Source: Euzebyella saccharophila
GTDB taxonomy: Bacteria > Bacteroidota > Bacteroidia > Flavobacteriales > Flavobacteriaceae
Direction: 5' to 3'
Assembly: GCF_014855495.1 (NCBI RefSeq)
Contig: NZ_JACYFJ010000001.1
Span: 434,001-498,000 of the forward strand
DNA length: 64,000 nucleotides
Shown here: positions 14,437-46,421 of the stretch, in pieces
Position numbering within the stretch: position 1 is the first letter of the stretch
Layout: every line of letters begins with the position of its first letter
Notes under the pieces: model-generated
Database searches by the model: none
What the model was told of the DNA's origin: nothing
Seen by the model: only the letters and a program-made list of their open reading frames with translations
Position numbers and translations under genes: made by a program

Positions 14437-15663
14437 TTAGTCTTCCGCTTCTTCCAAAGACAGGCCTTTCATGGCCAATAAAGCAAAAACGAGCGCTGTA
14501 AAGAGAAATAAAGCCGCTAGTGTATATGGTGCCCCAGGAAAATAGATGGCGCCCTCAGGGCGTATAAAATAGTAGAATACCGGAGAAAAAATTAGTTGAC
14601 CCAGAATAGAAGTTACACTCAACAATCCTGTAATGGCCCCTTGCAAATTCCCCTGTTCTTTTTCCGATACTTGATTGGATATAACCCCTTGAACCGTGGG
14701 CCCGGCAATTCCACCCAAGGCATAAGGAATTAAAAAGGCATAGAGCATCCAAGGTTCGGTGGCCAAGGAAAAAAGAAACATGCCAAAGGTCCAAAGAACA
14801 AAACCTACCACAATTACTCTTTTTCTTCCAAATTTTTTGACCAAAATCCCTACCAAAACCCCTTGAACCAAAGCCACCAATAAACCAACGACCATGAGCG
14901 AAACCCCAATTTCCTTTGGACTCCAATCATAGCGTTCAATACCGTAATAAGACCATGTGGCGGGTAAGGCTTGGCCTGCCAGATTAGCAAGAAAAAAAGC
15001 AAGAATTAAGGTAAGTACACCTTTGTAATGCTTCAGGTTTACCAATGAAACACCTGGTATCATTTTTACCCATTGGGCAGGTCTTCTGTTTTCTTTCTGA
15101 AGGGATTCAGGTACAAAAAGCCATCCGAAAAGGAAGTTGGCAAAGGTGAGTCCGGCTGCAATATAAAACGGCAGTCTGATGTCTATTTCACCAAAAAATC
15201 CACCAACACCCGGACCAATAATGAACCCAAGGCCAAAAGCGGCACCTATCAATCCAAAATTTTTGGCCTTTTCCTCCTTGGTACTTACATCGGCGATATA
15301 GGCCGAAGCCACCGTAAAACTAGCTCCAGTTATACCCGCTAAAAAGCGACCTAAAAACAACCATGCTATGGAAGGTACCCATGCATGTATTAAATAATCT
15401 ACACTTAGCCCTAATAAGGCAATTAAAAGAATGGGGCGCCTACCGTACTGATCAGATATTTCGCCCAATACAGGAGAAAACAAAAATTGCATCCCAGCGA
15501 ATGCAGTAGTAAGCCACATACCATAAATTACCGCCTGGGCAGTACCTTCACCTGTAAGTTCCATAATCAAATCTGGTATAATAGGAATGATGATTCCGAT
15601 ACCGATGACATCGACCAGGATGGTGATGAAAATAAATAGGAGGGCCGTTTTCTTTGATTTCAT
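14437..15663 (-). CDS. MFS transporter, TetA/DHA1-like drug exporter
   Basis: This is a 408-residue, 12-helix major facilitator protein. The loop 2-3 signature is present as GEISDQYGRRPILLIALLG, and motif C of antiporters is visible as GFIIGPGVGGFFGEIDIRLPFYIAAGLTFANFLFGWLFVPESL in the fifth-helix region. Overall it resembles TCR/TetA-type exporters found in many Bacteroidota. It probably expels a toxic compound by proton antiport; tetracycline specificity is not implied. It is transcribed away from the atp operon terminator at 15692-15717. Confidence 0.85.
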   Translation of the reverse strand: MKSKKTALLFIFITILVDVIGIGIIIPIIPDLIMELTGEGTAQAVIYGMWLTTAFAGMQFLFSPVLGEISDQYGRRPILLIALLGLSVDYLIHAWVPSIAWLFLGRFLAGITGASFTVASAYIADVSTKEEKAKNFGLIGAAFGLGFIIGPGVGGFFGEIDIRLPFYIAAGLTFANFLFGWLFVPESLQKENRRPAQWVKMIPGVSLVNLKHYKGVLTLILAFFLANLAGQALPATWSYYGIERYDWSPKEIGVSLMVVGLLVALVQGVLVGILVKKFGRKRVIVVGFVLWTFGMFLFSLATEPWMLYAFLIPYALGGIAGPTVQGVISNQVSEKEQGNLQGAITGLLSVTSILGQLIFSPVFYYFIRPEGAIYFPGAPYTLAALFLFTALVFALLAMKGLSLEEAED

Positions 15664-15691
15664 AATCGATGGTAAAAATCGACTAAAAAAT

Positions 15692-15717
15692 AAAACCCCA
15701 CATTTCTGTGAGGTTTT
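15692..15717 (-). terminator. rho-independent terminator of the atp operon
   Basis: On the minus strand the sequence forms an 11-bp stem (one U-G wobble) closed by a GAAA tetraloop and is followed by TTTTATTTTTT. It lies about 30 bp after the atpG stop and before the MFS gene, so it should end the atp transcript. Confidence 0.8.
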
Positions 15718-15749
15718 AATTTATCTAAATTATTATTTTAGAACTTGGA

Positions 15750-16610
15750 CTAATTATTCAAGGCCTCGGCACCACCAACAATCTCTAGGATTTCATTGGT
15801 AATAGCCGCTTGTCTGGCCTTATTGTACGTCAATTTCAATTGATCTCTTAATTCTTTAGCATTATCGGTAGCCTTATGCATGGCCGTCATCCTTGCTCCA
15901 TGCTCACTGGCAAAGGAATCTCTTATAGCCTTGTACAATTGAGTTTTTAAGGATTTTGGAATCAACTGTTCCACAATTTCCGCTTTTGATGGCTCAAATT
16001 TATAATCTGTACTTATAACCTCGCCACCTTCCGCAGGTACAATAGGTAAAAACTGCTCCGTCATTACCAGTTGGGTAGCGGCATTTTTAAATTTATTGTA
16101 GACTAACTCGATACGGTCGTACTTACCGGACACAAATAATTCCATCAATGACTCTGCGATTTCGGCAACGTTATCAAACGTAAGGTCGTCAAAAACCGGA
16201 CTGTGATTCGCGATCACAGCATTTTTCTTTGTCAAGAAATCATTGGCCTTTTTTCCGATAGCTACAAAATCCACCTGCTTACCAGCATACGTTTCGTTTG
16301 AAAGCGCAGTGGTTTGCTTTAGGATATTGGAGTTAAAAGCACCTGCCAAACCTCTGTTGGAAGTAATAGCAACTACCAAAACCTTTTTAACCTCTCGGTT
16401 GTCGGCGTACCTACTACCACTATCGGCATCTAAACTGGCGCTTAAACTTTGCAAAAGCTCCGTTAGCTTATCAGAATAAGGACGCATAGCGGTAATTGCA
16501 TCCTGTGCCTTCTTCAATTTTGCAGCGGATACCATTTTCATGGCACTCGTTATCTGCATGGTAGAGGACACCGATGAAATTCTATTTCGTATTTCCTTTA
16601 AATTGGCCAT
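15750..16610 (-). CDS. atpG: F1 ATP synthase gamma subunit
   Basis: This is the central rotor stalk subunit that couples c-ring rotation to catalysis in the α3β3 head. The 286 residues begin MANLKEIRNRISSVSSTMQITSAMKMVSAAKLKKAQDA, the canonical N-terminal helix. They end RDQLKLTYNKARQAAITNEILEIVGGAEAL, the C-terminal helix that sits in the head. Normally atpG directly follows atpA; here a 112-residue S23-like gene is inserted between them. The gene is last in the operon, and atpD and atpC are not in this window. Confidence 0.97.
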   Translation of the reverse strand: MANLKEIRNRISSVSSTMQITSAMKMVSAAKLKKAQDAITAMRPYSDKLTELLQSLSASLDADSGSRYADNREVKKVLVVAITSNRGLAGAFNSNILKQTTALSNETYAGKQVDFVAIGKKANDFLTKKNAVIANHSPVFDDLTFDNVAEIAESLMELFVSGKYDRIELVYNKFKNAATQLVMTEQFLPIVPAEGGEVISTDYKFEPSKAEIVEQLIPKSLKTQLYKAIRDSFASEHGARMTAMHKATDNAKELRDQLKLTYNKARQAAITNEILEIVGGAEALNN

Positions 16611-16616
16611 TTTTCA

Positions 16617-16648
16617 AATTATGAGTTTAAAGTTAAGAGTTAAGAGTT
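16617..16648. repeat. left flank of the S23 cassette (AGTTA-rich repeat)
   Basis: This stretch contains two copies of AAGAGTT in AGTTAAGAGTTAAGAGTT, next to ATGAGTTTAA. Its 13-mer AGAGTTAAGAGTT pairs, with one mismatch, with the 13-mer at 16978-16990 on the other side of the S23 gene, so the two flanks form an imperfect inverted repeat. Confidence 0.5.
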
Positions 16649-16978
16649 TTTGACTATTGAAACCAACATTCGAATCACCTCCTCACACTTCAACTTCATA
16701 TCTTTAGGAATTTCTCTTCCGGTAGCCTCTAATATTTCTAACCAATACATGGTTTCATCAGCTTCCTTTAGAGCAATACCAAATTTATTTTTAAAATCCT
16801 TTTTACTAACTCCTCTCTGTGCCTCACGTGTATTCGCGCCGATACTCGTTCCGCTTCTTAACAACTGAGAAGCCAACTCAAAATCCTTTTTATCTTTTAA
16901 CCTATCACAAAAGTGAACAACGTCACAAGCAAACTGAAAACTTTTTATCCTAACAGGACTTTCTCCAAGTTTACTCAT
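16640..16978 (-). CDS. S23/IVP-type four-helix bundle protein inserted between atpA and atpG
   Basis: This 112-residue protein matches the four-helix-bundle family named after proteins encoded in 23S rRNA intervening sequences. Helix 1 is SFQFACDVVHFCDRL; helix 2 contains LASQLLRSGTSIGANTREAQ, the family's most conserved stretch; helix 3 has KNKFGIALKEADETMYWLEIL; helix 4 is CEEVIRMLVSIV. Here it lies inside the atp operon, in the same orientation, between atpA and atpG. The ends are marked by complementary AGAGTTA-type repeats, and the start codon itself lies in the right-hand repeat. The function is unknown; nucleic-acid binding is suspected for relatives. Confidence 0.85.
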   Translation of the reverse strand: MSKLGESPVRIKSFQFACDVVHFCDRLKDKKDFELASQLLRSGTSIGANTREAQRGVSKKDFKNKFGIALKEADETMYWLEILEATGREIPKDMKLKCEEVIRMLVSIVKNS

Positions 16979-36493: not shown

Positions 36494-37174
36494 TTGTTGA
36501 ACGAGAACCAACTGCATACCGCCATTTTAGTATTTGCACAAAGTGCGAAGCTAGAAGCCATGCGAAAACCCATTCGTAATGCTGAGGCAGTATTTGATGC
36601 TTTAAACAAACACACGCTTTCCGTAGTGCAGGCCTCTGGTTTACCCTATTTAATCTGGGATGAAGAAAAACAAATTGGCGAAACCTTTGCCGAACGTTTT
36701 TCTAACGCATTACAGGCCGTTTTTGACCGGGGCTATAAAAATGTAATTTCTATTGGTAACGATAGCCCTAACTTAACGGTTTCCAAACTTAAACAGGCTT
36801 ACCACCAAATCTGCAAGGGCAAAACCGTTTTAGGTCCTTCTACGGATGGGGGCTTATATCTAATTGGTATAAACCGAACCCATTTTAATTACAACGATTT
36901 TAAGCGCTTGCCTTGGGAACGGATTTCGCTTTTTAAACGTATTTCGGAATCTTTTGGCTTAACGGGTGAAATTCATCAGTTAGAAACCTTGACAGATATT
37001 GATTCTGAAGAAGATATACTAAAGGTACTCCAGAAACGCCTAGCACATGCTTTAAAAAAAGCCTTGATGCTTGGTCTATCCAGACAAGCATCGCCTAAAA
37101 ACGACACACACCTTAGCTATACAACACACTACCCGTCTACCTTCTATAACAAAGGCTCTCCCCAGTATATCTAA
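36494..37174 (+). CDS. TIGR04282-type glycosyltransferase (DUF2064), arsenosugar-associated
   Basis: This 226-residue protein has a nucleotide-sugar transferase-like fold. Visible blocks are AILVFAQSAKLEAMRKPI, NVISIGNDSPNLTVSKLKQAY and GKTVLGPSTDGGLYLIGINR, with the DSP and DGG motifs of DUF2064. In TIGR04282 these genes accompany ArsS radical SAM enzymes, and ArsS is encoded at the far end of this block. No ATG precedes the first β-strand: an upstream ATG at 36473 is closed by TAG, so TTG at 36494 or 36497 must start it. The C-terminal 35 residues are basic, low in conservation and probably flexible. Confidence 0.75.
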   Translation: MLNENQLHTAILVFAQSAKLEAMRKPIRNAEAVFDALNKHTLSVVQASGLPYLIWDEEKQIGETFAERFSNALQAVFDRGYKNVISIGNDSPNLTVSKLKQAYHQICKGKTVLGPSTDGGLYLIGINRTHFNYNDFKRLPWERISLFKRISESFGLTGEIHQLETLTDIDSEEDILKVLQKRLAHALKKALMLGLSRQASPKNDTHLSYTTHYPSTFYNKGSPQYI

Positions 37175-37181
37175 GCTGTCG

Positions 37182-37190
37182 CCCCCCCCC
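37182..37190. repeat. nine-C homopolymer upstream of susC
   Basis: A run of nine C residues lies between the glycosyltransferase stop (37174) and the susC ATG (37221), in an otherwise AT-rich genome. It could change length by strand slippage and alter susC expression. Confidence 0.7.
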
Positions 37191-37220
37191 ACCTACATTT
37201 TAAAAATCTCAACATTACAA

Positions 37221-40200
37221 ATGAAAAATATACTTTTGGGTATGTTATTGTGCGTTTGCGCAATTACCCAAGCACAAATCAATATCAGCGGTAAGGTTAC
37301 CGATGCCAATCTAGAACCCCTACCCTTTGTCAATATTTTACTAGTACAATCTACTACTGGTGCTACTACAGATACCAATGGTAACTTTTTTATGGAACTA
37401 CCTGCGGAAGGTGGTCAATTGCGCTTTTCGCTTTTGGGTTTTAAGACCAAAACCATTTCCATTACCAGTGCTACCAACAACCTCAACATCACTTTAGAAG
37501 AAAGCTCAGAATTGCTTAACGAAATAGTCTTGACCGCGCTTGGTTTGGAACGTGAAACCAAAGAATTGGGTTATGTGGTGCAAAGTTTAGATGCGCAAGG
37601 AGTAACCGAGGTAAAATCGGTGAACTTTTTAGATAACCTTACCGGTAAATTGGCAGGGGTAACCATTAACCAAGGTCCAACGGGCGTAGGGTCTTCTAGC
37701 CGCATCAGCATAAGGGGCGAAGCTTCTTTTAGTAATAACAATCCATTGTTTATTGTAGACGGCGTACCCATTAACAACAACACTGTTTTTAACTTTACCA
37801 ATGAAGCGGCTGCTGGTTTTCAAGAAGTAGATTTTGGTAACGGTGCCATGGAAGTAAATCCAGATGACATTGAAGAGGTATCCGTTTTAAAAGGCCCAAG
37901 TGCCGCGGCATTGTATGGTACAAGAGCTGCCAATGGCGTGGTGGTAATAGCTACTAAAAATGGTAGTAAAACCAAAGGATTGGGTATTAGCTACAACACC
38001 AGTCTATTTTTGGAAAGTGCTTTTCAGTTGCCCGACTTTCAAAATAGCTACGGCCAAGGAAATTCTGGTCAATTTGAATATGTAGATGGTCTTGGCGGCG
38101 GAATAAACGACAATATTACCTATAGTTGGGGGCCTCGATTAGACCAAGGCACTTTGATTCCGCAGTTTGATAGTCCCGTGACCCTTGCGGACGGGACTGT
38201 GGTTCGTGGTGGTGATACCGCCCTTTACAACGGTTTGCCTATTACAGCAACACCTTTTGTTTCTAACCCGGACAACCTCAAGGATTTTTACGAAACCGGA
38301 ACCACTTTCATCAATAATCTCGCAATTTCTTCGGGATTTGATAAAGGTAATTACCGTTTGTCTTTTACCGATTTGCGTAGCGAAAGCATTATTCCAGGAG
38401 TAAATTTGGACCGCCAAACAGTTGCAGCGCGACTCAATTTTAGACCTACGGATAAGCTTCAGATTAATTCGTCCATCAACTATGTAAATTCGCAAAGCGA
38501 TAACCGCCCTTCTAATGGTTACGGTTCCGAGAATGTGAATTACTCTTTGGTAGCATGGGGTCCGCGCTCCCTTAATATTGATAATCTTAGGAATTATTGG
38601 CAACCCGGACTAGAGGGCAGACAGCAATATTCTTTTAACTATACTTTTTTTGACAATCCCTTCTTTATTCTACATGAGAATAGAAACTCATTTAACAGAG
38701 ATCGGGTTTTCGGGAATGTTTCGGCAAAATATCAGTTTACCCCGCAACTTTCGGCTACGGTGCGCAGCGGCATGGATTATTCCGATGAAACCAGACAATT
38801 ACGCCGCGCTTACAGTTCTAACCGCTTTCAAAACGGAGGCTATGCGGAACACGATGTGTTTTTTAGGGAAATTAACACCGACTTCCTTTTAAATTATACC
38901 AATCGTTTTAACGACTTTAAGGTGGCCATTTCTTTAGGTGGTAACCGGTTGGACCAAAAAGCCTTTACCAGTCAGTCCCAAACCACTAGTTTGGCACAAC
39001 CAGGTATTTTTAGGTTAAGCAATGCAGCATCCCCAGTTGAGGTTTTTGAATTTGAATCCAACAAACGCATCAACAGCTTGTATGGTTTGGCCAAAATAGG
39101 TTATAAAGATTTTCTGTTTTTAGATATTACCGGCCGTAATGATTGGTCTAGTGCCTTGGCTACGCCATTTTCTGTGGATAATGTCTCCTTTTTCTACCCA
39201 TCCGTGTCTACCAGTTTTATTCTTTCTGAGGTTGCAGCTTTGCCTTCGGCAATTTCGTTTTTAAAACTTAGAGCCAGTTGGGCACAAGTAGGTAACGATA
39301 CCAATCCCTACCAAACTTCAGGTGCGTTCGTAGCACAGACCCCTTATTTAGGACAAGCTACTTTTAGCGAACAGAATTTTATCGCCAATCCAAATTTACG
39401 TCCGGAGCAAACTTCCTCAGTAGAATTTGGGGCGGATATTCGTTTTTTTGGCGACCGTTTAAATTTTGATGTTTCGTATTACGATGCATTGACAAAAGAC
39501 CAGATTCTTTCGTTACCTATTGGTATCGCTTCCGGCTTTACTCAGCAGGTAGTAAATGGCGGTGAAGTACGCGCTAGAGGATTAGAAGTTATTCTGAACA
39601 CTACCCCGGTGGTTACTGATAATTTTAAATGGAACAGTACCTTAAACTTTAGTCGCTCAAGAACTACGGTAGAAGATTTACCCCAAGAAGATGGGCGTTT
39701 AACCTTAGCGTATTCCCGTATTTATGATAGTCAAAACCAAACGGTATTTTTACAGGTAGAAGAAGGTGGCCGTATTGGCGATTTGTACGGCACGGGCTAT
39801 TTAAGAAATGAAAATGGCGATTTTATCCTAACCGAAGAAGGACGATACATACCAGATAATAACTTACAAAAACTGGGTAATTACAATCCAGATTTTATGC
39901 TAGGGTTCAACAACCAATTCAGTTATAAAAATTGGGATTTAGGCTTTCTTTTAGATTGGAGACAAGGCGGTATTGTAGTATCTCGTACACGTGCTTTGGG
40001 TAATGTGGGCGGTCAATTATCAGAGACCGCTTTTAGGCCAGAAGAAGGTATTATACCGCAGGGTGTAATTAACACCGGTACGACAGAAAATCCGGTTTAT
40101 GTAGAAAATACGGTTGCGGTAACCTCAGAAAGTTACTACCGCCAGTTTTATGACCGTAACTATGAGGAAAACAATGTGTATGATGCTTCCTTTTTAAAAT

Positions 40201-40427
40201 TACGTCAAATAGCTCTTGGCTACACCTTTAAAAACTTAAGTTTTCTGCAACAGAATGCCAGTTTGCGCGTATCGTTAATTGGTCGTAATCTATTTGCGAT
40301 TACTGAAAATCCGCATTTTGACCCTGAGCAATTTGCTGTTCAGGGGAATGGATTTATTGGGGGCGTAGAAGACATGTCTTACGCCACCACAAGAAGTATC
40401 GGTTTTAAAGCAGGTTTTAATTTTTAA
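37221..40427 (+). CDS. SusC/RagA-type TonB-dependent outer membrane receptor
   Basis: This is an outer-membrane β-barrel importer of 1068 residues driven by TonB. A signal peptide (1-19, AITQAQ) is followed by a carboxypeptidase-regulatory-like domain (ISGKVTDANLEPLPFVNILL, about 22-100). The plug has the SusC signature NPLFIVDGVPINN and GPSAAALYGTRAANGVVVIATK, and the barrel ends in an aromatic Phe (KAGFNF). I chose the ATG at 37221, just before the signal peptide; the frame is open further upstream through the poly-C tract. It pairs with the SusD gene 12 bp downstream. The substrate is unknown; context points to a sugar-like compound linked to arsenosugar chemistry. Confidence 0.93.
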   Translation: MKNILLGMLLCVCAITQAQINISGKVTDANLEPLPFVNILLVQSTTGATTDTNGNFFMELPAEGGQLRFSLLGFKTKTISITSATNNLNITLEESSELLNEIVLTALGLERETKELGYVVQSLDAQGVTEVKSVNFLDNLTGKLAGVTINQGPTGVGSSSRISIRGEASFSNNNPLFIVDGVPINNNTVFNFTNEAAAGFQEVDFGNGAMEVNPDDIEEVSVLKGPSAAALYGTRAANGVVVIATKNGSKTKGLGISYNTSLFLESAFQLPDFQNSYGQGNSGQFEYVDGLGGGINDNITYSWGPRLDQGTLIPQFDSPVTLADGTVVRGGDTALYNGLPITATPFVSNPDNLKDFYETGTTFINNLAISSGFDKGNYRLSFTDLRSESIIPGVNLDRQTVAARLNFRPTDKLQINSSINYVNSQSDNRPSNGYGSENVNYSLVAWGPRSLNIDNLRNYWQPGLEGRQQYSFNYTFFDNPFFILHENRNSFNRDRVFGNVSAKYQFTPQLSATVRSGMDYSDETRQLRRAYSSNRFQNGGYAEHDVFFREINTDFLLNYTNRFNDFKVAISLGGNRLDQKAFTSQSQTTSLAQPGIFRLSNAASPVEVFEFESNKRINSLYGLAKIGYKDFLFLDITGRNDWSSALATPFSVDNVSFFYPSVSTSFILSEVAALPSAISFLKLRASWAQVGNDTNPYQTSGAFVAQTPYLGQATFSEQNFIANPNLRPEQTSSVEFGADIRFFGDRLNFDVSYYDALTKDQILSLPIGIASGFTQQVVNGGEVRARGLEVILNTTPVVTDNFKWNSTLNFSRSRTTVEDLPQEDGRLTLAYSRIYDSQNQTVFLQVEEGGRIGDLYGTGYLRNENGDFILTEEGRYIPDNNLQKLGNYNPDFMLGFNNQFSYKNWDLGFLLDWRQGGIVVSRTRALGNVGGQLSETAFRPEEGIIPQGVINTGTTENPVYVENTVAVTSESYYRQFYDRNYEENNVYDASFLKLRQIALGYTFKNLSFLQQNASLRVSLIGRNLFAITENPHFDPEQFAVQGNGFIGGVEDMSYATTRSIGFKAGFNF

Positions 40428-40439
40428 GAAGGTATCCAA

Positions 40440-41894
40440 ATGAAAAATAGAAATAAAACAATTAGTATATTATTTGCTTTGGTGCTTATTACTGCTTTGT
40501 TCCAAGCTTGTACCAAAGATTTTGAAGACATCAATACTAATCCCAATCAGCCCATTGCTGTAGAACCCAATTTGCTCCTGCGCCAAGTTATTTATGATTA
40601 TGGTGAGCAAATGTCTTACGAGGGTTTTACCGCTGGTAATCTGTTGGGGCAGTATAGTACGGCCTTAGATTTTAATCTTTTTGACCGTCACGATTTAAAA
40701 TCACCACAGTTGGGTGGTAATCCTTGGCCTATTATTTACAAAAACCTAAGGGATAATGAGTCCATTTTAGAACTTGCTTTGGAAAACCCTACCCATGAAG
40801 TTTATGAAGGTCCGTCTAGAATATTAAAAGCCTATATGGCGATGGCCCTGACGGATTTGTTTGGAGATGTTCCTTATTATGAGGCATTTCGAGGCGATGC
40901 AACTACGGTTACACCAGCCTATGACGCACAAGAAACCATTTACCTAGGCGAAGAAGGCATACTGGACAATCTGGATAAAGGCATTGCCGCCCTAGAAAAT
41001 TATGAAGGTGCTATTGCTCTGGAGGGCGATATTTTATTTGAGGGAAATTTAGATGGATGGATTCGCTTTGCGAATTCTTTAATACTAAAAGCTTTGGTAC
41101 GTATTGGCAGTCAACAAGATTCAAGTACGGAATTGCAGGCACTGTTCGATGCTGGAAATTTCATTACCCAAAATGAGGAAAACGCGGTGTTCGACTTTAC
41201 CAACGGAGAACCCAATAACTTTAGACTGGCTCGCCTGCGTATTGGCGACTTCAACAATTTTGTGCTTTCCGAAACTATGGAAGATATTTTAAAGGATTTG
41301 GAAGACCCACGCATAGCCACTTTTTATAGACCTTTTGCCAATAGTGATTCCGCAGAATTTAACGGGTTACTCAACGGTATCGATGCTTCACAAACCTCTA
41401 TTAACCTAGCGGATTATTCTTTGGCTGGGACTATTTTTAGGGAGGAAACTGGCAGATTAGACGCCAATTTTATGACGGCATGGGAAACCCATTTTTTATG
41501 GGCAGAAGCAGCCGAACGTGGGTGGATTACCGCCAATAGTACAGAATTGTATAACACTGCCGTTACCCAAGCTTTTGCCTATTGGGGCACCGATTTACCT
41601 GAAAATTATCTGTCAGGGCCTGCCGCTTTAGCCAATGGCGATGCCTTGCAGCAAATCATCACCCAAAAATGGATTGCCAATATTATTAATGGATATGAAG
41701 GTTGGATAGAATTTAGAAGAACTGGCTTTCCGCAATTGCGAACCATCTCGGCCAGTTTAAATAACGATTTAATTCCTGTTCGTATGCCTTACCCAGCAGA
41801 GGAGCAGGCACTAAACGCAGAAAATTACCAGACCGCCGCAGCCAATACGAATGATAACAGTATAAATGCCCCCGTTTGGTGGGATAATGAATAA
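40440..41894 (+). CDS. SusD/RagB-type nutrient-binding lipoprotein
   Basis: This is a 484-residue surface lipoprotein that caps the SusC barrel. The signal peptide ends in LFQAC (Cys24), followed by TKDFEDINTNPNQP, the typical start of the SusD-like_2 group. Helical TPR-like segments (RILKAYMAMALTDLFGDVPYYEAF, WIRFANSLILKALVRIG) and the late block EGWIEFRRTGFPQL match the family. Its stop overlaps the start of the symporter gene, so the pair and the inner-membrane transporter are made together. Confidence 0.92.
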   Translation: MKNRNKTISILFALVLITALFQACTKDFEDINTNPNQPIAVEPNLLLRQVIYDYGEQMSYEGFTAGNLLGQYSTALDFNLFDRHDLKSPQLGGNPWPIIYKNLRDNESILELALENPTHEVYEGPSRILKAYMAMALTDLFGDVPYYEAFRGDATTVTPAYDAQETIYLGEEGILDNLDKGIAALENYEGAIALEGDILFEGNLDGWIRFANSLILKALVRIGSQQDSSTELQALFDAGNFITQNEENAVFDFTNGEPNNFRLARLRIGDFNNFVLSETMEDILKDLEDPRIATFYRPFANSDSAEFNGLLNGIDASQTSINLADYSLAGTIFREETGRLDANFMTAWETHFLWAEAAERGWITANSTELYNTAVTQAFAYWGTDLPENYLSGPAALANGDALQQIITQKWIANIINGYEGWIEFRRTGFPQLRTISASLNNDLIPVRMPYPAEEQALNAENYQTAAANTNDNSINAPVWWDNE

Positions 41895-43275
41895 CATGCA
41901 GCCCTATTTAGACATATCGCTATTAAACCTTAACCCCAGCAGTATTGGTGTACTGCAATGGGGTCTGGTGCTTTTGTCTAGCTTGGCTTTCATCCTATTA
42001 TCCCCATTAGCTAAAAATACTGAACAGTTTTTTAAGGCACAGGTCAATCATAAAGCGCCCAATGCCTTTATGCTCATGGGTAGCTTGGTTATCTCTTGGA
42101 TTTTTGCCAAAAGTATTACCAATGCGGCTAATTTAGGTTTGGCCTATGGGTTAGTTGGTGGCGTAGCTTATGCAGCTTACTACCTTAGTTTTATAGTTGC
42201 CGGTTATGTTATTTATCACATGCGGACTAAAGGTGGATTTACCAGCATACATGAATTTTTGACTACTCGTTTTGGCAAAGGCGCCATGCTCTTGTTTTCG
42301 ATACTTATCGCTATTCGGCTGTTTAATGAAGTCTGGAGCAACACCATGGTCATTGGCTCCTATTTTGGCGAAATGGGTAGTCTACCTTACTATAGTTCCA
42401 TTCTTGTCTTTACAGTTTTAACCTTAGCTTACGCCCTAAAAGGCGGCTTGAGCAGTAGTATTTTTACCGATGTGATACAGATGGTACTGTTTGCTATTTT
42501 ACTTTTTGTGGTACTAGGCACTATTTTTTCTTCGGAAAGTGATTTTACCCCGGCTACAGTAGTTGCTTCTGGCGAATGGAAATGGGAGATGGGAGTAAAC
42601 CTTCTCCTAGCGGCCGTACTCCAATCATTTAGTTATCCTTTTCACGACCCGGTGTTAACAGACCGTGGCTTCATCAGCAAACCAAAAACAACCCTAAAGG
42701 CTTTTTTATGGGCAGGATTGGTTGGTGGTTTATGTATTATACTTTTCAGTATAATCGGAGTTTATGCACAACATCAACATATGGAAGGACAAGCAGCGGT
42801 TCAAGTGGCTAGAGCTTTTGGCGCCATTATCTTATTGATCATTAACTTTATTCTGATAACCTCTGCAGCTTCTACTCTTGATTCTACCTTTTCTTCCTTT
42901 TCTAAACTGGCTACCCTAGATTTAAATTTAGGTACAAGTTTAAGTTTTGGAAGATGGGCAATGGTGGTTATTGCCATTTTGGGTACGTTACCCATTTTTA
43001 TGGATGCGGAAATTTTATCGGCCACTACCATTAGTGGTACCATGGTAATTGGCCTAACTCCCGTTTTTGTATTGTGGAAAAAAGAAGTCTCTTCTACTAA
43101 TTATTACTTAAGTGTTATTGGCGGATTGGTCTTTGGTTTTTTATTGGTTTTTGAGGTATTCCCTAAAGCCCTCATTTTTACGGATGGCAAATATGCCGAT
43201 TTACTTTGGGTTAATTTTTGGGGTATTCTCGTATGTTTCCTCTTATATTTAATACCGCTATGGAGAAGAAAATAA
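41887..43275 (+). CDS. sodium:solute symporter (SSS family)
   Basis: This is an inner-membrane importer of 462 residues with about 13 helices. SSS features include the early KSITNAANLGLAYGLVGGVAYAAYYL segment, GGFTSIHEFLTTRFGKGAMLL and the YALKGGLSSSIFTDVIQMVLF block. The start at 41887 overlaps susD by 8 bp, and the next ATG at 41896 would also serve. Together with SusC/SusD it gives a full route across both membranes. It ends with TAATG shared with the metallophosphoesterase start. Relatives carry sugars, amino acids or nucleosides; the solute is not predictable. Confidence 0.87.
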   Translation: MNNMQPYLDISLLNLNPSSIGVLQWGLVLLSSLAFILLSPLAKNTEQFFKAQVNHKAPNAFMLMGSLVISWIFAKSITNAANLGLAYGLVGGVAYAAYYLSFIVAGYVIYHMRTKGGFTSIHEFLTTRFGKGAMLLFSILIAIRLFNEVWSNTMVIGSYFGEMGSLPYYSSILVFTVLTLAYALKGGLSSSIFTDVIQMVLFAILLFVVLGTIFSSESDFTPATVVASGEWKWEMGVNLLLAAVLQSFSYPFHDPVLTDRGFISKPKTTLKAFLWAGLVGGLCIILFSIIGVYAQHQHMEGQAAVQVARAFGAIILLIINFILITSAASTLDSTFSSFSKLATLDLNLGTSLSFGRWAMVVIAILGTLPIFMDAEILSATTISGTMVIGLTPVFVLWKKEVSSTNYYLSVIGGLVFGFLLVFEVFPKALIFTDGKYADLLWVNFWGILVCFLLYLIPLWRRK

Positions 43276-44462
43276 TGCATTTGGAGGTCCAAACGGACCG
43301 TGTACTGGTATTTGGCGGGGTCTACAGCAACCTGCAGGCCCTACAAGAGCTTAAAAGCATTGCAGAAGCTGAGGGTATTGCGCCAGAACACTGTATTTGT
43401 ACTGGCGATATTGTGGGCTATTGCGCACAACCAGAAGAAACCGTTCAGTTGTTTCGCGAATGGGGCGCGTTGAGCATTTCGGGCAATGTGGAACAGCAAT
43501 TGGCAGAAGGTAGCGACGATTGTGGCTGTGACTTTACCGAAGGTAGCCGCTGCGATGTGTTTTCCAGAACATGGTTTCCTTTTTCAAAAGAACAATTGTC
43601 TCAAGATTCCATAGATTGGATGGCGACGCTCCCAGAACATCTAAAATTTACCTTTGGTGGAAAAAAAATAACTGTTGTACACGGATCGTACGAACATGTG
43701 TCCAACTTTATATTTGAGTCCACTTCCGTAGAAAAAAAACAAGCCAGCTTTAGTGCATCTCAAAGCGATGTTATTATAGGTGGTCATTGCGGATTACCCT
43801 TTCATCATGAATTTGACAATAAATTGTGGTTGAATCCTGGTGTTATTGGTATGCCGGCGAATGACGGTACCCCACGTGTTTGGTATATGCTGCTAGAAGA
43901 GGTAGAGGGCGAATTAAAATATACCCATCGTTCTTTTGAGTACGATTACCACACGGCTAAGCAACTAATGCACATCAACTTTTTACCCGAAGCCTACGCG
44001 GATACCCTCCAGACCGGACTTTGGGACAATATGGAAATCTTGCCCGAATTAGAAAAAATGGTGCAAGGCATTCCTATCGATTTTAATACAAATTCCAAAA
44101 CAAATAAAAACACAAAACAAAATACCATGGCAAATAACTATTACGACCCAGCAGACTTAAGAAAATTTGGAAAAATAACCGAATGGAGTGAAGAGCTTGG
44201 TACCAAATTTTTTGACTATTACGGTAAGGTTTTTGAAGAAGGCGCACTAACTGCTAGAGAAAAGTCTTTAATTGCCTTGGCTGTTTCTCACGTGGTTAAA
44301 TGTCCATATTGTATAGATGCTTACACAAAAGATGGCCTACAAAAGGGAATTACCAAAGAAGAAATGATGGAAGCCGTGCATGTTGGCGCTGCCATAGAAA
44401 GTGGAGCCACATTGGTACATGGTGTACAAATGATGAACAAATACAATAAACTATCGCACTAA
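43275..44462 (+). CDS. metallophosphoesterase-like protein fused to an AhpD-like arsenosugar-associated domain
   Basis: The 395 residues combine two units. The first (about 1-285) is a calcineurin-like phosphoesterase: motif II is GDIVGYCAQPEE, motif III SGNVEQQL, motif IV VVHGSYEH and the last GHCGLPFHHE. Motif I is altered: FGGVYSNLQAL replaces the usual DxHGN, so a metal-binding Asp and His are missing. The second (about 285-395) is carboxymuconolactone decarboxylase/AhpD-like, with CPYCIDAYTKDG and EAVHVGAAIESGATLVHG, the TIGR04030 'arsenosugar-associated peroxidase-like' type. They are joined by an Asn/Lys/Thr linker. An ATG at 44127, after A-rich DNA, could also start the second unit alone (111 residues). 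Confidence 0.8.
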   Translation: MHLEVQTDRVLVFGGVYSNLQALQELKSIAEAEGIAPEHCICTGDIVGYCAQPEETVQLFREWGALSISGNVEQQLAEGSDDCGCDFTEGSRCDVFSRTWFPFSKEQLSQDSIDWMATLPEHLKFTFGGKKITVVHGSYEHVSNFIFESTSVEKKQASFSASQSDVIIGGHCGLPFHHEFDNKLWLNPGVIGMPANDGTPRVWYMLLEEVEGELKYTHRSFEYDYHTAKQLMHINFLPEAYADTLQTGLWDNMEILPELEKMVQGIPIDFNTNSKTNKNTKQNTMANNYYDPADLRKFGKITEWSEELGTKFFDYYGKVFEEGALTAREKSLIALAVSHVVKCPYCIDAYTKDGLQKGITKEEMMEAVHVGAAIESGATLVHGVQMMNKYNKLSH

Positions 44463-45559
44463 TGGAAAAGAGTATCATGAACGATCTGAAGAAGGCGAAA
44501 AAACCCAAATTAAAAACGCTACAAGCTAGGGAAAATGACCTTGCGCAACCCAATAAGCAGTTGGCGATATTAAACGGAGGTCTATTTGCCGATGGTGAAT
44601 TACCTTATTTTAAGGATAAAATTAGTGAGATAGGACAATTTCCGCTTCGCCCTAATAAATTGGAAATTCTACAGATAAACGTAGGGTATATGTGCAACAT
44701 TACCTGTGAACACTGCCATGTAGATGCGGGTCCTACCAGAAAGGAAATCATGACGGTAGAAACCATGGAGCAATGTCTAGAGGTAATTAGAAATACCGGG
44801 GCGCATACCTTGGATTTAACAGGTGGTGCACCGGAGATGAACCCAAATTTTAGATGGTTTGTAGAAGAGGCTTCCAAAGCTGGTATTAAAGATTTTATCG
44901 TACGGTCTAATTTGTCCATCATTTTGGCCAATCCAAAGTTTAACGACCTGCCAGAATTCTTTAAAAAACACAATGTACACGTGGTGTCTTCCCTACCGCA
45001 TTATACTCGTGGTAAAACCGATAAACAGCGTGGGGATGGGGTTTTTGACAAATCGATAAAAGCGTTACAATTATTGAACGAGGTAGGTTATGGAATGCCC
45101 GATAGTGAATTACGATTAGATTTAGTGTACAACCCGTCTGGAGCCTATTTACCTGGTGACCAAATGGCTTTGGAGCGCGATTTTAAAAAGGCACTGGACG
45201 AAGATTTTGGTATTCAGTTTCATAACCTTTTCGCGATAACCAATTTGCCTATTTCCCGTTTCTTGGATTACTTAATAGCATCTGACAATTACGAGGATTA
45301 TATGTATTCTTTGGTAGAAGCTTACAATCCGTCTGCGGTGAGCAGTGTTATGTGTACCAATACCATTTCCGTTAGCTGGGATGGCTGGCTGTACGACTGT
45401 GATTTTAATCAGATGTTGGGCTTAAAAGTGGCCAACAAAATAAAACACATTAAAGATTATAACGAGGATTTGATTAATGATAGAAACATCATCATTTCCC
45501 AACATTGTTATGGGTGTACTGCAGGTGCAGGAAGTAGTTGCCAAGGAACGGTGGCGTAA
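44462..45559 (+). CDS. arsS: ArsS-type radical SAM enzyme of arsenosugar biosynthesis
   Basis: This is a radical S-adenosylmethionine protein of 365 residues. The 4Fe-4S ligands are C78, C82 and C85 in MCNITCEHCHVD (CX3CX2C), followed by the GGxPE-type LTGGAPEMNP. The C-terminal DUF3641-like region has VSWDGWLYDCDFNQMLGL and HCYGCTAGAGSSCQGTVA; in some homologues this tail carries selenocysteine, but here all are cysteine codons. ArsS with ArsM is reported to make dimethylated arsenoribosides, but no arsM lies in this window. Its start shares TAATG with the upstream gene. It is the last gene before the TetR promoter. Confidence 0.85.
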   Translation: MEKSIMNDLKKAKKPKLKTLQARENDLAQPNKQLAILNGGLFADGELPYFKDKISEIGQFPLRPNKLEILQINVGYMCNITCEHCHVDAGPTRKEIMTVETMEQCLEVIRNTGAHTLDLTGGAPEMNPNFRWFVEEASKAGIKDFIVRSNLSIILANPKFNDLPEFFKKHNVHVVSSLPHYTRGKTDKQRGDGVFDKSIKALQLLNEVGYGMPDSELRLDLVYNPSGAYLPGDQMALERDFKKALDEDFGIQFHNLFAITNLPISRFLDYLIASDNYEDYMYSLVEAYNPSAVSSVMCTNTISVSWDGWLYDCDFNQMLGLKVANKIKHIKDYNEDLINDRNIIISQHCYGCTAGAGSSCQGTVA

Positions 45560-45770: not shown

Positions 45771-46421
45771 ATGGACAAGACTTTAAAACGCATGGCTACC
45801 ATGCAACGTATGCAAGTAACCGGATTGGAACTTTTCTATAAAAAAGGCTATTACAATACCAGTGTTGACGATATTCTAAAAGAACTTTCCCTTTCAAAAG
45901 GCGCCTTTTACTATCATTTCGATTCAAAAGAAGATTTCTTCATTCAAATTATTGAAAACCTTTTGGTTCGGAAGATGTACAGTATGCTCATAGAACCTAT
46001 TGAAGGACATGAAAACACCTTAGACTCGATTACCAATTGTTTCGAGGATGCCCTGGAAACAGCAGTTCACAACGAACTTGATTTCGGATTTGTGCTAAGT
46101 AACTTCGTGAACGAATTCAACGGCAAGAACGAAAAAATTATGAAGCACCTGAATGATATCTTAAGAATTTGGGAGGCCAACCTTGTTTCTGCCGTACAGA
46201 GAGGTAAATTCAATGGTTTTATAGACAGACACGTAGATAGTGAAGGAATGGCCGTATTCTTGATGAGTTCGTATATGGGTATTAGAACCTTGATGGTAGA
46301 AACTGCTCCAAGTGCCAGAAAATATCGTTTCATGTCTCAGCTAAGACAATATTTTAAATCAATTGAGCCAAAAGGAGAAAACAGCTTGAACCCAAATGCT
46401 GTCTTCGGGAACGTCAATTAG
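45771..46421 (+). CDS. TetR/AcrR-family transcriptional regulator
   Basis: This 216-residue repressor-type protein has an N-terminal helix-turn-helix (about 8-58): MQRMQVTGLELFYKKGYYNTSVDDILKELSLSKGAFYYHFDSKEDFF, a classic TetR signature with the recognition helix LSKGAFYYHF. The C-terminal domain (about 65-200) is a helical ligand-binding and dimerisation region. Two copies of a TetR-type palindrome lie upstream, the nearer one at the probable transcription start, which suggests autoregulation. Further copies upstream of araC and sprE mark likely targets. The ligand is unknown. Its 3' end overlaps the convergent glycosyltransferase by 8 bp. Confidence 0.9.
   Translation: MDKTLKRMATMQRMQVTGLELFYKKGYYNTSVDDILKELSLSKGAFYYHFDSKEDFFIQIIENLLVRKMYSMLIEPIEGHENTLDSITNCFEDALETAVHNELDFGFVLSNFVNEFNGKNEKIMKHLNDILRIWEANLVSAVQRGKFNGFIDRHVDSEGMAVFLMSSYMGIRTLMVETAPSARKYRFMSQLRQYFKSIEPKGENSLNPNAVFGNVN

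Follow-up and report, generated by a model that had tools for sequence, protein, structure and literature searches.

The window analysed here is a stretch of 64,000 nucleotides from Euzebyella saccharophila (contig NZ_JACYFJ010000001.1), and positions 36494-45559 of its forward strand were confirmed to hold a six-gene operon that encodes GT', SusC, SusD, an SSS symporter, a metallophosphoesterase-fold (MPE) domain fused to an AhpD-like domain, and the radical SAM protein ArsS. The first gene, GT' (36494-37174), is a degenerate paralogue of TIGR04282 with a CofC-like nucleotidyltransferase fold and carries the residues NKGSP near its C-terminus (codons at 37148-37162). It is followed by a SusC/RagA-type TonB-dependent outer membrane transporter (37221-40427; TIGR04056, 600 bits against a cut-off of 368) and a SusD-like_2 outer membrane lipoprotein (40440-41894; PF12771, 293 bits), whose lipoprotein cysteine, Cys24, is invariant in 13/13 sequences. 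The SSS-type sodium/solute symporter (41887-43275, in an open reading frame that opens at 41866) passed PF00474 narrowly (25.7 bits, cut-off 22.8) and scored 51 bits with TIGR00813, below the cut-off of 184. The MPE domain (43260-44132; the frame opens at 43218, and 43275 may also be the start) continues in frame into the AhpD-like domain (44133-44462; TIGR04169, 194.5 bits, cut-off 120), which forms the C-terminal part of a single 414-residue open reading frame. ArsS, with a DUF3641 C-terminal domain, closes the operon (44462-45559; TIGR04167, 439 bits, cut-off 300) and carries the sequence CNITCEHC. The radical SAM motif CxxxCxxC is present in 73 of the 74 ArsS proteins found in the 80 loci described below.

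The layout originally predicted for SusC, SusD, the SSS symporter, the AhpD-like domain, and ArsS was borne out by profile scores and coordinates, including the 12 bp that separate susC from the start of susD. The overlaps of one to eight bases claimed from susD to arsS depend on the starts chosen: they hold for an SSS start at 41887 (8 bases with SusD) and a fusion start at 43275 (1 base with SSS), whereas the start at 41866 gives 29 bases and that at 43260, which aligns with relatives, gives 16. The fusion and ArsS overlap by 1 base. The AhpD-like domain had been assigned to TIGR04030 instead of TIGR04169, its position behind an MPE fold (PF12850) going unmentioned. The first gene had been called TIGR04282-type, and here a partial match stands, confined to model positions 70-189, but its 88 bits fall below the cut-off of 134 and the KTR motif is missing. 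A promoter scan returned 19 promoter-like sites against 26.2 in shuffles, no excess, and was not used.

Conservation of the importer module beside ArsS

ArsS, called by TIGR04167 over its cut-off, occurs in 156 of the 395 genomes of a phylum sample. We fetched 98 ArsS neighbourhoods and recognised ArsS in 96 of them; L037 and L104, for which the open reading frame caller returned no ArsS, are excluded from the neighbourhood counts. A SusD orthologue lies near ArsS in 5/96 loci, in the same direction in L021, L031, L032, and L040 and convergent in L041. A search with the window SusD in 395 class genomes, inferred from the equal sample size and matching handles to be the same genomes across searches, gave 12 with a SusD of at least 57% identity and 9 in which the identity did not exceed 40%. 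All 12 genomes with a SusD orthologue carry ArsS, compared with 66/395 class-wide (hypergeometric p 2e-10); among the nine with a remote SusD, ArsS was found in one (G395, locus L144). Modules not linked to ArsS were also fetched: the order GT'-SusC-SusD-SSS-MPE is kept in L132-L135 and L144, while L137 and L138 are without GT' only and L136 has its MPE on the other strand. No shared partner gene beside these unlinked modules stood out by eye from the first 160 residues.

Scanning genome contigs with a SusD alignment disclosed 317 relatives, and the best 80 were used for the locus counts. Nearly all of these 80 belong to Flavobacteriaceae (Croceivirga, Maribacter, Winogradskyella, Leeuwenhoekiella, Polaribacter, Lacinutrix, Olleya), genera that are mostly marine. 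ArsS lies within the fetched stretch in 74/80; the six loci without it comprise four cut contigs (L203, L210, L248, L254) and two unlinked modules (L187, L234). The MPE-AhpD fusion occurs in 29/80 loci. The commonest long cluster reads AhpD-ArsS-GT'-SusC-SusD-SSS-MPE-rhodanese-TIGR04282-PNP-(arsM)-fatty acid hydroxylase-like-DUF547-TIGR04283, the fatty acid hydroxylase-like gene having been scanned in two loci. GT'-SusC-SusD-SSS-MPE is well supported as a conserved module, both as a unit and in its link to arsenosugar genes. The TetR gene that comes after ArsS in the window (45771-46421) was not counted in the module, as it has the same position in the importer-less loci L025, L026, and L030.

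Over positions 36515-45559 (forward strand), identity to Croceivirga radicis and to strain ASW18X is 90%, and this block lies in flanks of 66-71% identity to C. radicis (aligned pieces) and 66-74% to ASW18X; strain FL35 is 91% identical throughout, in the block as well as the flanks. This pattern is most simply read as an exchange or replacement of all six genes together. Purifying selection acts on ArsS, which is more constrained than the other five, with a nonsynonymous divergence (dN) of 0.001-0.004 at a synonymous divergence (dS) of ~0.4 against three relatives, including FL35, which is without arsM. At a dS of ~0.4 it differs in 1/365 residues from ASW18X (arsM present) and likewise from FL35 (arsM absent).

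An ordinary polysaccharide utilisation locus that happened to be inserted beside arsS would share the tandem susC-susD and an inner membrane transporter with this operon, and SusCD pairs are very common in the phylum. Such a chance neighbourhood is nevertheless close to negligible in probability: the search for the gene order in related genomes, as suggested in the original prediction, found it again in dozens of them, which places the arrangement far beyond chance, and the gene fusion, the profile match, and the block exchange also speak against it. A polysaccharide utilisation locus was rejected because profile scans found no carbohydrate-active enzyme among the six operon proteins, which in contrast to such loci include an arsenic radical SAM enzyme. 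The earlier claim that the importer is joined to the arsenosugar pathway is strongly supported by the 12/12 co-occurrence, the linkage in 74/80 loci, and the block exchange.

Distribution of arsM

The predicted absence of arsM from this stretch was correct, and a search of the rest of the window genome, which is 99.97% complete, likewise found none (best scores 22.7 bits for NF038099 and 44.7 bits for NF008823). A second location on this contig (L163) holds rhodanese-TIGR04282-PNP-TIGR04283. C. radicis (L263) has the same order plus arsM between PNP and TIGR04283; in G304, the other sampled family genome with a fused operon, arsM is absent from that place (L164) and genome-wide.

To compare gene content, 28 long clusters were chosen for having PNP and TIGR04283 both in reach, a selection that fixes those two genes and SusD. 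All 28 hold the AhpD-like gene (AHP), ArsS, GT', SusC, SusD, SSS, MPE, rhodanese, TIGR04282, and DUF547, and arsM, present in only seven, is the sole scored gene that varies. Importer-less clusters with PNP have arsM in 14/14 cases: 11/11 with ArsS and PNP in reach, and 3/3 in L141-L143, relatives' importer-less loci in which the PNP cluster lies apart from ArsS. The gene is missing from 21/28 importer clusters compared with 0/14 importer-less ones (Fisher p 4e-6), and this test, like the others of its type below, treats related genomes as independent.

Whole-genome searches covered 50 of the 80 importer-bearing genomes, chosen as named isolates. Thirty-three gave no AsSugarArsM (NF038099) match at E 1e-12 or better; of the remainder, 15 were over the cut-off and two weaker (about 95-103 bits). 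Other arsM types should have been seen, because those cross-checked with NF008823 (G134, G190, G371, G072) score 90-116 bits in the AsSugarArsM model. Window-family genomes without an importer beside ArsS hold AsSugarArsM in 14/14 cases, and genome-wide absence of the importer was shown for seven of them. The gene is missing in 33/50 compared with 0/7 of the genomes without an importer genome-wide (p 0.0013) or with 0/14 (p 6e-6). Within the class sample, any arsM type is missing from 7/13 importer-bearing and 7/53 importer-less ArsS genomes (p 0.004), the 13 being the 12 with SusD orthologues plus G395; with the 12 orthologues alone, p is 0.014. For AsSugarArsM alone the corresponding fractions are 9/12 and 23/54 (p 0.058). 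The criterion for any arsM (NF038099 over its cut-off, or at least 145 bits with NF008823) was chosen once the scores had been seen, and one of the positives, G672, has an internal stop.

On an ArsS tree of 79 rows, a quick tree with many weak forks, arsM changes at least 19 times. The tree holds 47 of the 50 searched genomes: ArsS is out of reach in L187 and L234, and L191 duplicates L032. G072, G395, and G655 were left out. At closer range, Olleya marilimosa and O. sediminilitoris are 93-96% identical in the flanking parts of the cluster, the difference between them being an exact piece of ~1,019 bases with arsM in it, and two strains named Winogradskyella psychrotolerans, more diverged from one another, differ at the arsM place too. 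These natural pairs are ready-made experiments.

Many importer genomes are without arsM, as would be expected if the ArsS of this subgroup and its importer acted on a substrate without arsenic. We hold this to be very unlikely, since in the class sample AsSugarArsM is restricted to genomes with ArsS (34/34), often inside the ArsS cluster, and near-identical ArsS proteins occur in Croceivirga relatives with and without arsM.

Possible cargo of the importer

We propose that the importer feeds a pre-methylated organoarsenic compound to ArsS, which would make arsM dispensable and the six genes the uptake arm of the arsenosugar pathway; we give this reading an even chance. With arsM absent and the later steps kept, the simplest explanation is that dimethylated arsenic arrives from outside through the importer, and because the imported arsenic would already be methylated, arsM could be dispensed with and lost repeatedly. 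The cargo would thus hold arsenic and would presumably be dimethylated, as dimethylarsinate or a conjugate of it, and the absence of arsM would reflect loss. A sugar or nucleoside precursor, or an arsenosugar itself, had been put forward as cargo in the original prediction. The idea of import was retained; these candidates leave the dispensability of arsM unexplained, however, and a pre-methylated arsenical is favoured for this reason.

The chemistry of ArsS and the direction of SusCD and SSS transport are drawn from the literature or from knowledge of the families. The organoarsenical would pass the outer membrane through TonB-driven SusCD and the inner membrane through the SSS symporter. Once in the cytosol, it would be handled by the MPE-fold/AhpD-like fusion, which probably binds the arsenic with its cysteines and converts it to the trivalent form, whereupon ArsS would join 5'-deoxyadenosine to this dimethylated arsenic. 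The products of the second genomic place, PNP, TIGR04282, and TIGR04283, would then complete an arsenosugar or arsenolipid. The roles given here to the MPE-fold and AhpD domains, and any role of GT', are presumptive.

To our knowledge, no importer dedicated to organic arsenic has been recognised. The making of arsenosugars is commonly seen as a way to detoxify arsenic that a cell failed to exclude. A conserved uptake system in the same operon reverses that view and allows a test of whether arsenic is something that bacteria want; if the proposal is true, arsenic is taken up on purpose from seawater or algae and not detoxified. More tentatively, and with somewhat less confidence, we suggest that Flavobacteriaceae of mostly marine genera own a dedicated TonB/SusCD system and sodium symporter for organic arsenic, which they gather as a building block of arsenosugars or arsenolipids, that the methylase was repeatedly lost, and that a cysteine-rich pseudo-phosphoesterase, frequently joined to an AhpD-like domain, hands the arsenic to ArsS. 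These questions also concern the organisms that move methylated arsenic through the sea and those that make arsenosugars and arsenolipids.

The available literature offers several points of comparison. Dimethylarsinate averages only ~3.2 nM in the central Atlantic according to PMC6426599, which cites the value, and at such a concentration a high-affinity route seems reasonable. The same paper shows oxidation of dimethylarsinate by SAR11; in both cases marine heterotrophs would draw on methylated arsenic of phytoplankton origin, the difference being that SAR11 oxidises the methyl groups for energy whereas here the arsenic would enter a product. ArsS adenosylates arsenic in arsenosugar biosynthesis, as stated in PMC12159101, which cites Cheng et al. 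2021, and that cyanobacterial system shares the ArsS family enzyme with the window. It also shares AhpD-like, TIGR04282, and TIGR04283 partners, named by NCBIfam for arsenosugar biosynthesis. In contrast to it, the window operon adds the SusCD and SSS importer and the MPE-fold/AhpD fusion, and arsM is absent. Importer-less clusters of the family (for example, L019 and L023) have AhpD-like, ArsS, TIGR04282, and PNP genes in common with the importer clusters, often also rhodanese, DUF547, and TIGR04283, but retain AsSugarArsM (NF038099) and are without the SusCD-SSS-MPE module. Searches of the open-access literature, outside which most subscription journals lie, gave no paper with both 'arsenosugar' and 'TonB' and a single one that brings together arsenosugars, ArsS, and radical SAM, and none of the titles and abstracts found describes this cluster, which is no proof of novelty.

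Several observations weigh against a pre-methylated arsenical as the cargo. Seventeen of the 50 importer-bearing genomes retain arsM, among them C. radicis and ASW18X with their 90% identical operon, and conversely 7/53 importer-less ArsS genomes of the class sample are also without it. When the tree is controlled for, six independent pairs on the starred, well-supported branches remain, on average 4.2 in the expected and 0.3 in the opposite direction (median sign test p 0.125, non-significant), a result that is suggestive only. Five of six remote SusCD relatives (34-40% identity; L145, L147-L150) adjoin phosphodiesterase-, metallophosphoesterase-, FMN oxidoreductase- or APH kinase-like genes, while L146 does not. 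In other Bacteroidota families, six loci (L048, L057, L064, L084, L085, L086) have, downstream of ArsS, a different TonB-type receptor together with a phosphodiesterase of type I (PF01663); four of the phosphodiesterases and three of the receptors were scanned, and the rest were assigned by clustering. The neighbours of the remote SusCD relatives and the receptor loci hint at a phosphodiester cargo over free dimethylarsinate.

A phosphodiester-linked arsenosugar is accordingly a serious rival as cargo. The importer would take up a glycerophosphoryl arsenosugar, supplied by algae or lysed cells or previously released by the cell itself, for salvage or recapture, and ArsS would serve as a parallel or repair route. 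Beyond the neighbours just described, several hosts have algal names, for example, Maribacter ulvicola and Tamlana sargassicola. We nonetheless consider this reading unlikely, as a cell supplied with a ready arsenosugar could do without ArsS and PNP, yet among the six genes ArsS is under the strongest constraint, PNP, TIGR04282, and TIGR04283 are retained in the window genome, and the MPE-fold domain of the module is without catalytic ligands. The importer may alternatively take up an arsenic-free partner of the pathway, such as an acceptor, a glycerophospho compound or a nucleoside, arsM being lost as dimethylarsinate leaks in by other means. Here the nearest solved structures of the SSS protein, although weak matches, are the choline transporter CHT1 and SGLT1, and the fatty acid hydroxylase-like gene of the long clusters would fit a lipid product. 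This also seems rather unlikely, for it gives no account of why arsM is present in 7/28 clusters with the importer and in 14/14 without. As an observation in its own right, the receptor and PF01663 phosphodiesterase beside ArsS in other families provide a second link of ArsS clusters to import.

Divergent domains and additional genes

The MPE domain matches PF12850 with 43 bits (cut-off 27) and falls just below the cut-off of PF00149 (21.0 against 21.5 bits). Its predicted model (pLDDT 87) has 1nnw, SapH (3qfm), and 3rqz as closest structures. By way of the 3rqz alignment we compared it with the motifs DxH, GNH, and GHxH of calcineurin-type enzymes. Residues at metal-binding or catalytic positions of these motifs are lost in 78/78 sequences: Gly and Tyr replace Asp and His of DxH, Val or Ile the His of GNH (usually Val, Ile in 2/78), and Gly the second His of GHxH. 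Residues D50, N76, H141, and H176 are retained and Cys55, Cys88, Cys90, and Cys98 are invariant across the 78 sequences; a separate alignment of 20 was also made. Because of the lost motif residues, an active phosphodiesterase is held to be unlikely, and the domain would appear to be catalytically dead and may bind arsenic.

GT' has likewise diverged from its family. The motif KTR[LM] near the N-terminus, found in 35/39 canonical TIGR04282 copies, occurs in 0/76 GT' proteins, whose fold has 3cgx as its nearest structure. The residues NKGSP conclude a variable tail near the C-terminus in all 76 GT' proteins of the 80 loci and were not seen in two from other families (L131, L132). A DNA element was considered and rejected for this stretch; its codons vary synonymously, so that it looks like a protein motif. 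The peptide could be a docking or processing motif of GT'.

Some clusters contain further genes. In L235, a small DM13-like protein with a type IX secretion tail (14772-15491) is encoded between TIGR04282 and PNP, and some other clusters have genes of similar size there. A flavoprotein of about 453 residues, phytoene-desaturase/HpnE-like in the one copy scanned, precedes ArsS in 15 loci, including L075-L078; inspection of these loci revealed no AhpD-like gene. The Tamlana cluster L233 has an MFS transporter gene (15674-16834) at the place expected for arsM, and an open reading frame of equal size occupies that place in L247.

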